From: a virus
Strand: one strand, 5' to 3'
DNA length: 64,000 nucleotides
IMG/VR virus record: IMGVR_UViG_3300019927_000044
Span: 1 to 64,000 of that record
Shown: piece after piece, positions 51,542-59,274 of the stretch
Layout of the letters: each line of letters opens with the position of its first letter
Numbering within the stretch: the stretch's first letter is position 1
The notes under the pieces: model-generated
Seen by the model: the letters and a program-made list of their open reading frames with translations, nothing else
Database searches by the model: none
Told to the model about the DNA's origin: nothing
Program-made: the position numbers and the translations under genes

Positions 51542-52654
51542 ATGGCAACGACTTCTTTCCATACTGAAGAAGATTTCACTGAACAGGTTAGTCCCGACGA
51601 AGACCTCATGCTTGAGCGTGAGGGTCGTGACCGTCGTGGTGTCCGTCGAGAGATGGCCCCACTGAATGTCATGGAGCGTGGGACGCGAAAGATTGAGGAA
51701 GGCGATGGGACGTATGTGCAGCACGATTCGTCCATGCCGACTGGTACCACTGGCGTTGGCGAGGTTCTTGGCAACGTCGACATCGTTCGGTACCTCGGTG
51801 ACGAAGTGCTGATTCCGCGTATGACGCACTCCATGGCGCTTGACGCCGAAGACCTTGACCTTGGCAATGCCAATGAAAAGGTCCAGCGAGCGCAGGATAC
51901 CGTCATGGAGATGTTCGACATTCAGGCGGACCTACAGTTCCTCAAAGGCATTACCGATGAGGAAGGTAACGAGGTTCAGCCCGATATCTTCTCGTGGCTT
52001 GATAACAACATCCCGAGCGGAAATGTTATCGACGCGACGAACTACACGTCGGACTATTCGCTGTCGAACGGACAGCCGTCGAACATTATCCAGCGTGTTG
52101 CCTACCAGAACACGCAGGGTATCTATGCCGACGACGCATGGGACATGGCGCTGTGGAAGCATCCTGTAGAGGCACTGTGGAACACGATTGACGACAACAG
52201 CGGCTTCGCGCTTCAGAGTCAGTGGGTTGACATGGGCGCTGACGCGGCTGGTGTCGGTAACTCTGTCGTTGGCGATACGGTCAAGATTCCGAATCAGGTT
52301 GGTCTTCGCACCGCGCCCGACCAGCCCGATAGTCTTCAGTTCGACATCGACTTCCCGACTCGTCAGAACTCCTCGTACGACTCGCCCATTGGTGACATCG
52401 AAGGGTTCACGGATGACGACGACGTGATGTACCTCATCCCCGACCACGGTGGGGACTTCTTCTCGATGTACGAGCATCCCGAACCCACGCTTATTCAGGA
52501 GCCTGTCCGCAAGAACGGCGGGCGTCTTGAGTACGAGTACTACTGGCGTGCTGGTCAGGCATTCGGCTTCGGTTCCCACAAGACCGACGACGGTGCTGGT
52601 GGCGATGTTGCGTACGATGCCATCAAGATTGAGAACGTCTCTGCGCTATTCTAA
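51542..52654 (+). CDS. Major capsid protein, HK97-like, 370 aa
   Basis: Position after protease and decoration genes, AAGGAG ribosome-binding site, highest GC of the window and length near 370 aa point to the major capsid protein. The N-terminal helix region is acidic and could be a delta domain (EDLMLEREGRDRRGVRREM). Central DIQADLQFLKGITDEEG and the C-terminal P/A-domain-like WRAGQAFGFG fit an HK97 fold, though the fold is not provable here. Ends NVSALF. Confidence 0.85.
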   Translation: MATTSFHTEEDFTEQVSPDEDLMLEREGRDRRGVRREMAPLNVMERGTRKIEEGDGTYVQHDSSMPTGTTGVGEVLGNVDIVRYLGDEVLIPRMTHSMALDAEDLDLGNANEKVQRAQDTVMEMFDIQADLQFLKGITDEEGNEVQPDIFSWLDNNIPSGNVIDATNYTSDYSLSNGQPSNIIQRVAYQNTQGIYADDAWDMALWKHPVEALWNTIDDNSGFALQSQWVDMGADAAGVGNSVVGDTVKIPNQVGLRTAPDQPDSLQFDIDFPTRQNSSYDSPIGDIEGFTDDDDVMYLIPDHGGDFFSMYEHPEPTLIQEPVRKNGGRLEYEYYWRAGQAFGFGSHKTDDGAGGDVAYDAIKIENVSALF

Positions 52655-54897: not shown

Positions 54898-56196
54898 ATG
54901 GCAGAAGTTTACGGCGGAAGTGGTCCTGTTGGGGATACGACAACTGTTCGCACTGGCGGAACGACCGCTATTAGTGCGGCATTTAATATTTCTGTTGGTC
55001 TTGTCGGCAATGCTGACTTGGCTAACGGAACTGCCTCAGCAGAGTCCGTTGAGTTTGTAGAATCGTCCAGTGAAGCGGCAACGTTGTTCGGTGAAGATTC
55101 CGAACTAAAGCAGCAGATTGACCTTGCCATTCTGAATGGTGCTGGGGAAATTTACGCTGCTGCGGTGCCCGAAACTGAAACAACTGAGTCCTTTGACAGT
55201 ACGTCCAGCGGGACGCTGGGCAATCAGACGGTTGCTGACCCGCGTGTGATGCCAGAGGAAGAGATTACGGCCCTTGATACGGTCGAGTCGACAACTGTAA
55301 CGGTCAATCTTGTCGACGGACTACCCTCAACACCGACAGAAGCTAACACGATGAACCTAAATCCTGTTAGTGGCGAGTGGGCTGCCGATGAGTCGTCTGA
55401 TTATGATATCACGTACACGTACAGCGACTACTCGACGGCCATTACGAACATGGTTGACGAGTCGCCGCGCTTCCTCGGCATCTGTTCCGAGAAAAGTACT
55501 GATGGCAACACGGCACTGACTGGAATGAACAACGCCGATGTTGGGTTCGACTTCATGCACGCTGTTGTTGGGGCTGTACCAGAAGTCGACCCGTCGTCGT
55601 TCAGTCAGTCCTACAACGACCGTCGTATGGGTGTTATCACGTCGTCTCGTGGCTACACAGACGATGCTGAAACGAATGAGCAACGTCTTGTCGGTGCAAT
55701 TGCTGGCAAGCAGGCTGGGAAAGCACTTGGTGACTCTACGACGCAGGAACTTATTAGCGGCTTTACGGCGCTGAAACAAAATCACAATCCGAGTGATACG
55801 TCGACGCTAAACGACGCTGGCGCATACGTTGTTAAGGAAGAACGTGGTATCCGTGTTGTTCGAGATACTAACACCAGCGAGGAGGCCAAACTTGGCCGAT
55901 TTGCGTGGTCGGAAATTACGGATGAGGTGACTGAAATTTCCCACCTTATTTCGCTGGACTTCCTCGGTGAGAAAAACACTGAAGAGCGACGTGATGACCT
56001 TGCCGAGTCTCACCGTACGTCCTATGATGAATTTGTTGCAGACGACCTGCTAACGAATTACTTCGTTGGCGTGTCTACTGTCAATGATACCACAGTCGAC
56101 CTTAACATTGGTATCGATGTTGTCGGCTACATGGACAATATTAATGTTACGGTTACTGTCGGTGACGTGACTGTTGAAAACGGAGGTGCAAGCTAA
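54898..56196 (+). CDS. Tail sheath protein, 432 aa
   Basis: Contractile sheath: NISVGLVGNADLANGTASAE and AATLFGEDSELKQQIDLAIL, followed by GAGEIYAAAVPE, match the sheath N-terminal pattern; a GMNNADVGFDFMHAVVG-like central domain and a C-terminal NINVTVTVGDVTVENGG strand end. Its presence with a following tube gene defines a myovirus. Confidence 0.85.
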   Translation: MAEVYGGSGPVGDTTTVRTGGTTAISAAFNISVGLVGNADLANGTASAESVEFVESSSEAATLFGEDSELKQQIDLAILNGAGEIYAAAVPETETTESFDSTSSGTLGNQTVADPRVMPEEEITALDTVESTTVTVNLVDGLPSTPTEANTMNLNPVSGEWAADESSDYDITYTYSDYSTAITNMVDESPRFLGICSEKSTDGNTALTGMNNADVGFDFMHAVVGAVPEVDPSSFSQSYNDRRMGVITSSRGYTDDAETNEQRLVGAIAGKQAGKALGDSTTQELISGFTALKQNHNPSDTSTLNDAGAYVVKEERGIRVVRDTNTSEEAKLGRFAWSEITDEVTEISHLISLDFLGEKNTEERRDDLAESHRTSYDEFVADDLLTNYFVGVSTVNDTTVDLNIGIDVVGYMDNINVTVTVGDVTVENGGAS

Positions 56197-56642
56197 TGGT
56201 TTGGTATCCTACAAATGCGAACGATGTTTCGCTAACGGTTAGTGTTGTAGAGCGCGACGAAACTGGGTCCCGTACTGGGTCGACTACACTTGGCGAAAGT
56301 GCCAATATCAGCGTCGATGATTTCAGTATTGGGACTGATGAAGACCTTGAGGGGCTGTCGGGAATTGGCAACCCTGAAGCTTTGGGCCTCTCACGCGGTG
56401 ATATTGAACACACGTTCTCGTTCACTGTCCAAGGTGAAGACGCAGCACTGTTCACTGGTCTTGCCAGCGACGAAACTGGTCGTGCAGTCGAACTGGAAAT
56501 TATTGTTGTAATGGAAGACTACAAAGATAAACTTGTCGGTGCGCGTGCTGGCACTCGGAACATCTCTGGGTCCAGCGGCGACCCGATTGAGTTTGAAGTT
56601 GAAGGTATGGCAACTGGGCGACCGAACGCGGATACATCATAA
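56196..56642 (+). CDS. Tail tube protein, 148 aa
   Basis: Beta-sandwich pattern (EHTFSFTVQGEDAALFTGLA, VELEIIVVMEDYKDKLVGA), right size and placed immediately after the sheath, sharing one base with it. It forms the inner tube. Confidence 0.78.
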   Translation: MVWYPTNANDVSLTVSVVERDETGSRTGSTTLGESANISVDDFSIGTDEDLEGLSGIGNPEALGLSRGDIEHTFSFTVQGEDAALFTGLASDETGRAVELEIIVVMEDYKDKLVGARAGTRNISGSSGDPIEFEVEGMATGRPNADTS

Positions 56643-56653
56643 ATTAATAACCA

Positions 56654-57220
56654 ATGAGTGACCTATTTGAAGTACGTGGTAAGACAGAAGAAGGTACAGA
56701 CTGGCGTGGTTCCATTACAATCCAGATGGATGGTGAAGAGAAAGAGCTTACCATTCGTCAGCTAAACGACACTGAAAACTGGGATGTGATGGAAAAAATT
56801 GACAAAAAGGAGCTTCAAAACCTTGACGCTGACGTTGATGAAGAGCTTGTTTCTGAGCTACAGGAGCTTGAAGAGCGTGAAGACCTAAGTGATGAAGAGC
56901 AAGAGCGGAAAGAAGAACTGTACGAACGCGTCGAGGAAGAAGACATGAACCTGTTCGATACTATCTCGAAAGAAACGTTCGAGGGTATCAAACAGGCTGC
57001 AAAGTACGGTGTTGAGCCTGACAACAAAGACGTTCGTGATGCACTGACCGAACATGCTGGTGAAATTGAAGAGCAGTATGGCGGTACTGCACACGAAGAT
57101 GCGCGACAGTACGTCAACGACAATGTTGTCAAGCCGATGATTGAAGATTCGGTTGACTTTACGTCGTTTGCTATCGGTATTAAAGTTCTGAACGCTACGC
57201 TTGGTGATGTAAAAAACTGA
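56654..57220 (+). CDS. Tail assembly chaperone (zero-frame product), 188 aa
   Basis: Located between tube and tape-measure genes, the standard place of the tail chaperone. Helical and acidic (ELQELEEREDLSDEEQERKE). The last codons before TGA are GTA AAA AAC, containing the slippery heptamer A AAA AAC (57211-57217). A -1 shift continues in the frame of the following ORF. Confidence 0.8.
   Translation: MSDLFEVRGKTEEGTDWRGSITIQMDGEEKELTIRQLNDTENWDVMEKIDKKELQNLDADVDEELVSELQELEEREDLSDEEQERKEELYERVEEEDMNLFDTISKETFEGIKQAAKYGVEPDNKDVRDALTEHAGEIEEQYGGTAHEDARQYVNDNVVKPMIEDSVDFTSFAIGIKVLNATLGDVKN
57211..57217 (+). promoter_or_regulatory. Programmed -1 frameshift site A AAA AAC
   Basis: Canonical X XXY YYZ slippery sequence directly followed by TGA in frame 0. 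After slipping, reading proceeds CTG AAA GAG TTA GCC through ATG 57241 without a stop. The fusion would be 261 aa (188 + 73). Confidence 0.8.
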
Positions 57221-57438
57221 AAGAGTTAGCCCATTCTGAAATGGGGAAAGAAATATATTCCCTACATGATAATGGGCGAAAATTATTTACATCACCGAAA
57301 GATTGTACACCAATTCAGCGATATGTTTATGTGATGGCAAAAGACCATCACACTGACGACCCAGACGCGGGAAGCCCAAATCCGCACGGTATGCAGCACG
57401 GGCAAGACATTAAGAACCACACAAGTAAATTTGTGTGA
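57217..57438 (+). CDS. Tail assembly chaperone, -1 frame extension (73 aa)
   Basis: Open from the slip point with sequence LKELAHSEMGKEIYSLHDNG, then HHTDDPDAGSPNPHGMQHG. A separate start at ATG 57241 would give 65 aa but has no ribosome-binding site. A short acidic zero-frame product plus low-level fusion protein is the rule for this locus in tailed viruses. Confidence 0.7.
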   Translation: MKELAHSEMGKEIYSLHDNGRKLFTSPKDCTPIQRYVYVMAKDHHTDDPDAGSPNPHGMQHGQDIKNHTSKFV

Positions 57439-57489: not shown

Positions 57490-59274
57490 ATGGCTATCGA
57501 ATCTCTTGAAATCGATGTCATCATTAATGTTGCTGAAGCTTTATCTTCATTAGAAGAATTAGAAAATGAGCTTGATGAACTTTCTGATGATATTGATGCT
57601 GTCGATAGGCGCGGGACAGAAGGGATTAGTGTTAATACCCGCGTTGACCCGATAGATGACGACCTTGCAGAAATTCGTGCAAAGTTAGCTGCATTTGAGC
57701 GGAGTACGTCGCTCGATATTGGGACAAATATCGGTGGCATTGGTGGCGGGGGTGGTGGTATGGGACCAGCACAGCTACGTGGGGTGATGCGTGATGCTAT
57801 GGCTGATGCTCTAAGCTCCACAGGCGGCTCTCAAGCGGTTGATGCATCGGCAAGGTCCAGAACCCTTCGCGGCGCGCTGCAACGGATGCAGGCGTCTACT
57901 GCGTCCAATGTGGGCGAGCTATTCGACCAGTTCGATGACTTTGGCGGCACTCGTCGTGGAACTGGTGACGACGGTGGCCCACTTGACAGTTTGTTCCGTC
58001 GAATGCGTGGTAGTTTTAGTAGCATGATTGACGGTATGGGCGAGTTCGACCTTCGTATGTCGGACCTTCACAATGCGATGGCACGCCTTGTCCCGCTACT
58101 ACTTGTCTTTATTGGTGCCATTCCAGCAGCTTACACTGCACTCATTGGTCTTGCGACTGCCGCAGTTGCTGCTGCTGCATCGCTGGCTGCTATTGGCGGC
58201 TTTGGTGCGTTAGGTGTTGCACTGCAAGATGGGCAGTTAGATATGGCCCGATTGCAAGAAGTTGGAACTGAAATAAAGAACTCTTTCATTGACGCCTTCG
58301 CACCGCTGGCCGAACAACTACAGCCGTTGTTCATAGACGCAGTTGACGGTCTGGATAGATTCTTCCAGTTAGTTGCCAACAATGGTGATGCGTTGCTTGA
58401 ACTGCGTGACGAGGCCAGAGCATTTGGTCAGTTTGTTATTGACTTTGTTCCAAACGCACTTCGAGCAATTGCTGGACTTGTTGAAGGAATGGCAGATGTC
58501 TTTGGCAACATTGGCGATTTCCTCCAACGTAACTTTGCTGGTGGAATGCGGCAGCTACTTCGAGTGACGAGAGATGCTATTCCTGCCGTCGCAGAGGTGG
58601 GGTTATTGCTTGCACAAGCTGTTCCGACACTTGTTGAAATGTCTGTCGGCTTTATGCGCGTTGTTGGGACTGTAATACAGGTAATTGGTGCCTTCTCACG
58701 TCTACTCGGGCTATTAGGCATTGGGCCTGAAATGTTTGGGTTACTAACTGGTGCGATACTTGCTGCGGCAACCGCAACGTTACTTTTCAGAACTGCCATT
58801 GTTAAAGCATTAATAGCTTCGTTAGCAAAACTGGGAGGTGGAATCTTAGCAGCCGCTTCATCACTTGTTGGATATTCTGGCAGTGCCATTGTAGCTACTT
58901 TAGCAACTAATGCACTTGGAATGGCGCTGCTGACACTTATCGGCATTGTCACTTTGGGCCTCGGAATTGCGGTACTGGCTGGTGTCGTTGGTGGGATAGC
59001 CTCACAGTTCGACCTTCTGAAAAACGATATTACGGACACGACTGACGCACTAAAAGAGTTCGATAACGTTGCCAGTTCCGTTGGTGGTAATGGGTCGCAA
59101 AATCCGTATGGCTTTACACCAGAAAACGGTTCTGGCGGTGGTTCTGGAACGTCTGGCAGTAATAGTTCCAAAGACGTAACCATCAACATCGAGTCCAGTG
59201 GTGATTCTCAAGAAGATAGGAGCAACGCACGCTATGCGGCATGGGCGCAAGGTCGAGACACAGGTAGTACATAA
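57490..59274 (+). CDS. Tape measure protein, 594 aa
   Basis: The longest late gene so far, after the chaperones. N-terminal coiled coil (LEELENELDELSDDIDAVD), a glycine patch, then long hydrophobic helices (PLLLVFIGAIPAAYTALIG, ATAAVAAAASLAAIGGFGAL, and GMALLTLIGIVTLGLGIAVL). This is typical for tape measures, which set tail length and insert into the membrane. It ends in a Gly/Ser linker. Confidence 0.85.
   Translation: MAIESLEIDVIINVAEALSSLEELENELDELSDDIDAVDRRGTEGISVNTRVDPIDDDLAEIRAKLAAFERSTSLDIGTNIGGIGGGGGGMGPAQLRGVMRDAMADALSSTGGSQAVDASARSRTLRGALQRMQASTASNVGELFDQFDDFGGTRRGTGDDGGPLDSLFRRMRGSFSSMIDGMGEFDLRMSDLHNAMARLVPLLLVFIGAIPAAYTALIGLATAAVAAAASLAAIGGFGALGVALQDGQLDMARLQEVGTEIKNSFIDAFAPLAEQLQPLFIDAVDGLDRFFQLVANNGDALLELRDEARAFGQFVIDFVPNALRAIAGLVEGMADVFGNIGDFLQRNFAGGMRQLLRVTRDAIPAVAEVGLLLAQAVPTLVEMSVGFMRVVGTVIQVIGAFSRLLGLLGIGPEMFGLLTGAILAAATATLLFRTAIVKALIASLAKLGGGILAAASSLVGYSGSAIVATLATNALGMALLTLIGIVTLGLGIAVLAGVVGGIASQFDLLKNDITDTTDALKEFDNVASSVGGNGSQNPYGFTPENGSGGGSGTSGSNSSKDVTINIESSGDSQEDRSNARYAAWAQGRDTGST

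Follow-up and report, generated by a model that had tools for sequence, protein, structure and literature searches.

The window analysed here, the whole 64,000-nucleotide stretch of a virus record of 67,387 bases, carries a run of tail genes on the plus strand. A tail sheath gene (54898-56196; PHROG 10244 tail sheath, E = 3e-58; Pfam PF04984) is followed by a probable tail tube gene (56196-56642), which gave a weak match to Pfam Phage_tube_2, below the cut-off, and has the same position as in the haloarchaeal myovirus HATV-2. Two overlapping ORFs, referred to as G and T, lie between the tube gene and the gene for the tail tape measure protein (57490-59274), the latter assigned by position and because 38% of its length aligns with the HATV-2 tape measure protein at 39% identity. 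The resulting order of sheath, tube, G/T and tape measure agrees with the original prediction of a chaperone gene between tube and tape measure and matches HATV-2, whose record (MZ334525) annotates the same shift as a "putative programmed translational -1 frameshift".

Where hosts were named, the tail sheath hits from the phage collection were tailed viruses of haloarchaea, and HATV-2 was the only virus found by G, by the 370-residue protein encoded at 51542-52654 and by the tape measure protein. Together, these matches make a haloarchaeon the very probable host. Neither G nor T matched a curated chaperone family in Pfam, PHROG or NCBIfam. The predicted structure of G (pLDDT 70) had no solved-structure match in the PDB, and its strong matches in BFVD were only to close, unnamed proteins; weak Pfam and PDB matches (TipAS, apolipoprotein E) were set aside as products of coiled-coil composition. 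The name "chaperone" for G is thus based on gene order together with the HATV-2 annotation. A profile search of genome contigs with T returned no cellular or provirus relative.

G (56654-57220, plus strand) encodes a zero-frame product of 188 residues and ends in GTA AAA AAC TGA, with its stop codon at 57218-57220. Exactly as had been claimed, the slippery heptamer A AAA AAC (57211-57217) directly adjoins this stop, in X XXY YYZ phase. Upstream, the -1 frame is closed by a TGA at 57205-57207 and is then open from 57208 to 57435. Read from 57217, it begins CTG AAA GAG and, in line with the original prediction, translates through to a TGA at 57436-57438, giving T (57217-57438) as an extension of 73 residues. 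The predicted G-T fusion has 261 residues and, for tandem slippage, a VKN/LKE junction. The heptamer alone is not rare, with nine occurrences of WAAAAAAC in the window against 5.4 expected, so that phase, context and conservation have to carry the case. A scan for ORFs of at least 60 residues with an in-phase heptamer in their last 12 codons and 50 or more open -1 codons after it returned three of 307 ORFs; G was the only one of the three with the heptamer directly before its stop.

Scans of viral contigs, together with HATV-2, supplied 14 further copies of the gene, and we compared the site across all 15, namely the window, 13 IMG/VR contigs and the isolate HATV-2 (L001 and L005, one and the same contig, were counted once). 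G of the window is 41-98% identical to that of 11 relatives. A slippery heptamer was present at the corresponding place in every copy. It is A AAA AAC in five of them (window, L005, L012, L018 and HATV-2) and G GGA AAC in ten (L006-L011 and L013-L016). The zero-frame stop follows the heptamer directly in 13 copies and three codons later in L009 and L010. Given the encoded amino acids, the chance of codon choices that create a heptamer ranges from 0.02 to 0.11 per lineage. GGA accounts for 9% of glycine codons in these genes, yet it is used at every G-type site, and the preceding codon (TCG, ACG, AAG or GAG before the G type; GTA, ACA, TCA or CGA before the A type) always ends in the matching base. 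Conservation in 15 of 15 copies despite saturated synonymous sites is far beyond chance, and the retention of GGA, AAC and the matching third base at such sites provides strong evidence of selection for slippage. In the best tree of the fusion protein, the heptamer type switches three times; its inner branches are weak, and a single change between the two types could still account for their distribution.

All copies have a T frame of 68-73 codons. Its synonymous sites differ by about 80% among copies; mean pN and pS in the -1 frame were 0.14 and 0.80, respectively, corresponding to a pN/pS of 0.18, whereas the other two frames across the T region gave 1.2 and 2.4 (calculated from T sequences with HATV-2 left out). 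The T alignment contains 21 invariant columns, and conservation begins at the first codon after the heptamer, with L1, L4, A5 and S7 invariant among the first eight codons. Judged from these substitution patterns, the -1 frame is conserved as a protein from its first codon and under purifying selection. The expectation that relatives would keep both the heptamer, in either of its two versions, and an open -1 frame was thus borne out.

These data bear directly on the reading in which T is a separate gene (57241-57438, 65 residues), translated by re-initiation after the G stop. An ATG at 57241-57243 could serve as its start, being in frame and 20 nt downstream of the G stop; it is kept in L005, L011-L016 and L018. 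The start is not conserved, however: it is missing in six of the 15 copies (L006-L010 and HATV-2), and in these six no ATG, GTG or TTG follows the upstream stop until T codon 33-41, though codons 1-32 are conserved. T codons 1-8 are conserved as well, although they lie upstream of ATG 57241, and a separate start would leave the maintained slippery heptamer unexplained. The original prediction had also invoked the lack of a ribosome-binding site before T. ATG 57241 indeed has no Shine-Dalgarno-like motif; the argument is weak, because the G gene lacks one as well and the absence is therefore uninformative. Taken together, we consider separate initiation of T very unlikely. The original prediction had named two findings that would count against it, relatives without the heptamer or the open -1 frame and a T made only from 57241; the comparison spoke for the prediction on both counts.

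Even less likely is slippage of the RNA polymerase on the A run, which would yield a mixed mRNA pool from which G-T is made. The window and four relatives have six consecutive A, but such a run is short for polymerase slippage, and ten relatives carry GGGAAAC, where neither the G run nor the A run exceeds three, in the same frame relation. The exchange of G and A between the heptamer types points instead to tandem tRNA slippage. The least probable reading, that a base was lost or gained in the homopolymer at the window site through assembly or sequencing error, or through decay of a once continuous gene, is already refuted by independent contigs, since the same frame break occurs in the 98%-identical L005, in 12 more IMG/VR contigs and in isolate HATV-2, including sites without a homopolymer, and purifying selection on T in the -1 frame speaks against error and decay alike.

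Several elements that might stimulate the -1 shift were considered. A candidate hairpin on the plus strand (57229-57277) begins about 11 nt 3' of the heptamer, with stems GCCCATT/AATGGGC and, inside, GGGGAA/TTCCCT. Its minimum free energy is -18.7 kcal/mol, with a z-score of -3.6 relative to dinucleotide shuffles, none of 200 being as stable. Among 37 positions along the gene in 11 relatives, the segment directly 3' of the heptamer had the lowest mean folding z-score (-1.6, mononucleotide shuffles), whereas four of 11 individual sequences had folding z-scores above -1, and RNAalifold detected no consensus structure downstream of the heptamer in the relatives. A 3' hairpin stimulator is plausible, though with no shape common to the relatives. 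No internal Shine-Dalgarno sequence at the spacing of bacterial stimulators was conserved among the relatives. As a stimulator, GGTGAT at 57204-57209 was discarded, because no more than 2 nt separate it from the heptamer, it codes for Gly-Asp and several relatives have lost it. This hexamer is complementary to the archaeal anti-Shine-Dalgarno sequence and adjoins the heptamer within 2 nt in several relatives too, a spacing that fits no known -1 stimulator. Rfam gave no match of note, and the window contains no tRNA genes, so that no virus-coded tRNA there explains the shift. We regard it as conceivable, though rather doubtful, that in this archaeal myovirus lineage the heptamer alone, without a conserved RNA stimulator, sets the ratio of G to G-T.

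The closest known system is gp21/gp22 of HATV-2 (Soleiviridae), which shares with the window homologous G and T and the same gene order; its site reads CGA AAA AAC TGA. G identity between the two viruses is 36-41% (36% over the full length) and T identity 49%; HATV-2 is a different species from the window virus and probably belongs to a different genus. HCTV-2 gp40/gp41 (KC292028, Saparoviridae), annotated as a joined CDS, has the same heptamer and stop as the window (GCA AAA AAC TGA). It differs in its longer T and in being a siphovirus rather than a myovirus, and homology of its chaperone to G/T of the window was not detected by the searches run. In PMC5009743, the HCTV-2 tail chaperone shift site is given as A_AAA_AAC, citing Sencilo 2013, the sites of HCTV-1 and HCTV-5 as G_GGA_AAC and G_GGA_AAG, respectively, and a -1 shift is reported for the HVTV-1 tail chaperone. 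For the Hardycor1 tail chaperone, the site is G GGA AAT (PMC7911831). By these published reports, the HCTV-1, HCTV-5 and Hardycor1 sites resemble that of the window in following X XXY YYZ; these viruses and HVTV-1 differ from it in being siphoviruses of other families.

The arrangement also resembles that of lambda gpG/gpGT, described as a pair of small ORFs located between the tail tube and tape measure genes, which an infrequent -1 shift joins (Xu, Hendrix and Duda 2004). The window likewise has two small ORFs between tube and tape measure, with T in the -1 frame. The lambda slippery site is G GGA AAG. Sequence homology of G and T to lambda gpG/gpGT was not detectable, and, unlike lambda, the window virus has a contractile tail and depends on an archaeal ribosome. 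The only studied archaeal -1 frameshift is that of fucA (fucA1) of Saccharolobus solfataricus (PMC8211752, PMC8037382), and several -1 frameshifts have been predicted in haloviruses (PMC8211752). The original prediction had stressed how scarce such evidence is in Archaea; this holds insofar as we found no experimental proof in these viruses in the literature consulted, whereas novelty was overstated, because the same heptamer and stop had been published for HCTV-2 and several other haloviruses had been predicted to shift. In light of the published HCTV-2, HCTV-1 and Hardycor1 sites and the HATV-2 annotation, the kind is already known, and the predicted site described here is a well-supported addition to it, a strong and testable new case in an archaeal myovirus lineage.

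Beyond this lineage, the motif of T, E-I-x-x-L-x-D-x-G-x-x-L ... D-x-T-P-x-Q-R, could also be recognised. In HRTV-25 (MZ334521, L019:5722-6409), the chaperone is annotated with a putative -2 frameshift and its T part has the T motif of the window (hhalign probability 92). In Methanobacterium virus PhiF3 (MN737622, L021:2970-3180), an unannotated T-like domain, IRSDDGKEILILDDLGYKLSETQKDLTPLQR, lies between ORF20 and ORF21, in the +1 frame relative to ORF20, with an hhalign probability of 97 to the T profile. Each hhalign run compared a single pair, and its E-value is therefore not that of a database search. The PhiF3 stretch suggests a tail chaperone with a +1 or -2 shift in a methanogen virus, and with HRTV-25 it raises the possibility that the same G-T fusion may be reached via different shift directions in different archaeal viruses. 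In HGTV-1 (KC292026, L020:6755-7416), gp19/gp20 occupy the position expected of the chaperone pair. Relative to gp19, gp20 lies in the -1 frame, but the pair showed no canonical heptamer, nor was T homology detected.

Based on these findings, we hold with high confidence that positions 56654-57438 constitute a lambda G/GT-type tail assembly chaperone gene with a predicted -1 frameshift, in a contractile-tailed virus of haloarchaea that is a relative of HATV-2 (Soleiviridae). Very probably, the virus makes a longer second version of a tail-building helper by a -1 slip before the stop, a mechanism long familiar from phages of bacteria. In our working model, most ribosomes would terminate at TGA 57218 and release G, while a minority would slip back by one base upon reaching A AAA AAC, most likely through joint movement of the P-site Lys tRNA and the A-site Asn tRNA. 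The slipped ribosomes would then continue in the T frame to 57438 and produce the G-T fusion. On the lambda model, G together with a small proportion of G-T would coat the tape measure protein and bring in subunits of the tail tube.

This lineage thus offers a predicted archaeal -1 site that is backed by comparison across 15 copies. Two natural versions of the heptamer can be compared directly in it, which makes the rules of archaeal -1 slippage testable, and the T frame is a useful marker for the correct annotation of these virus genomes.
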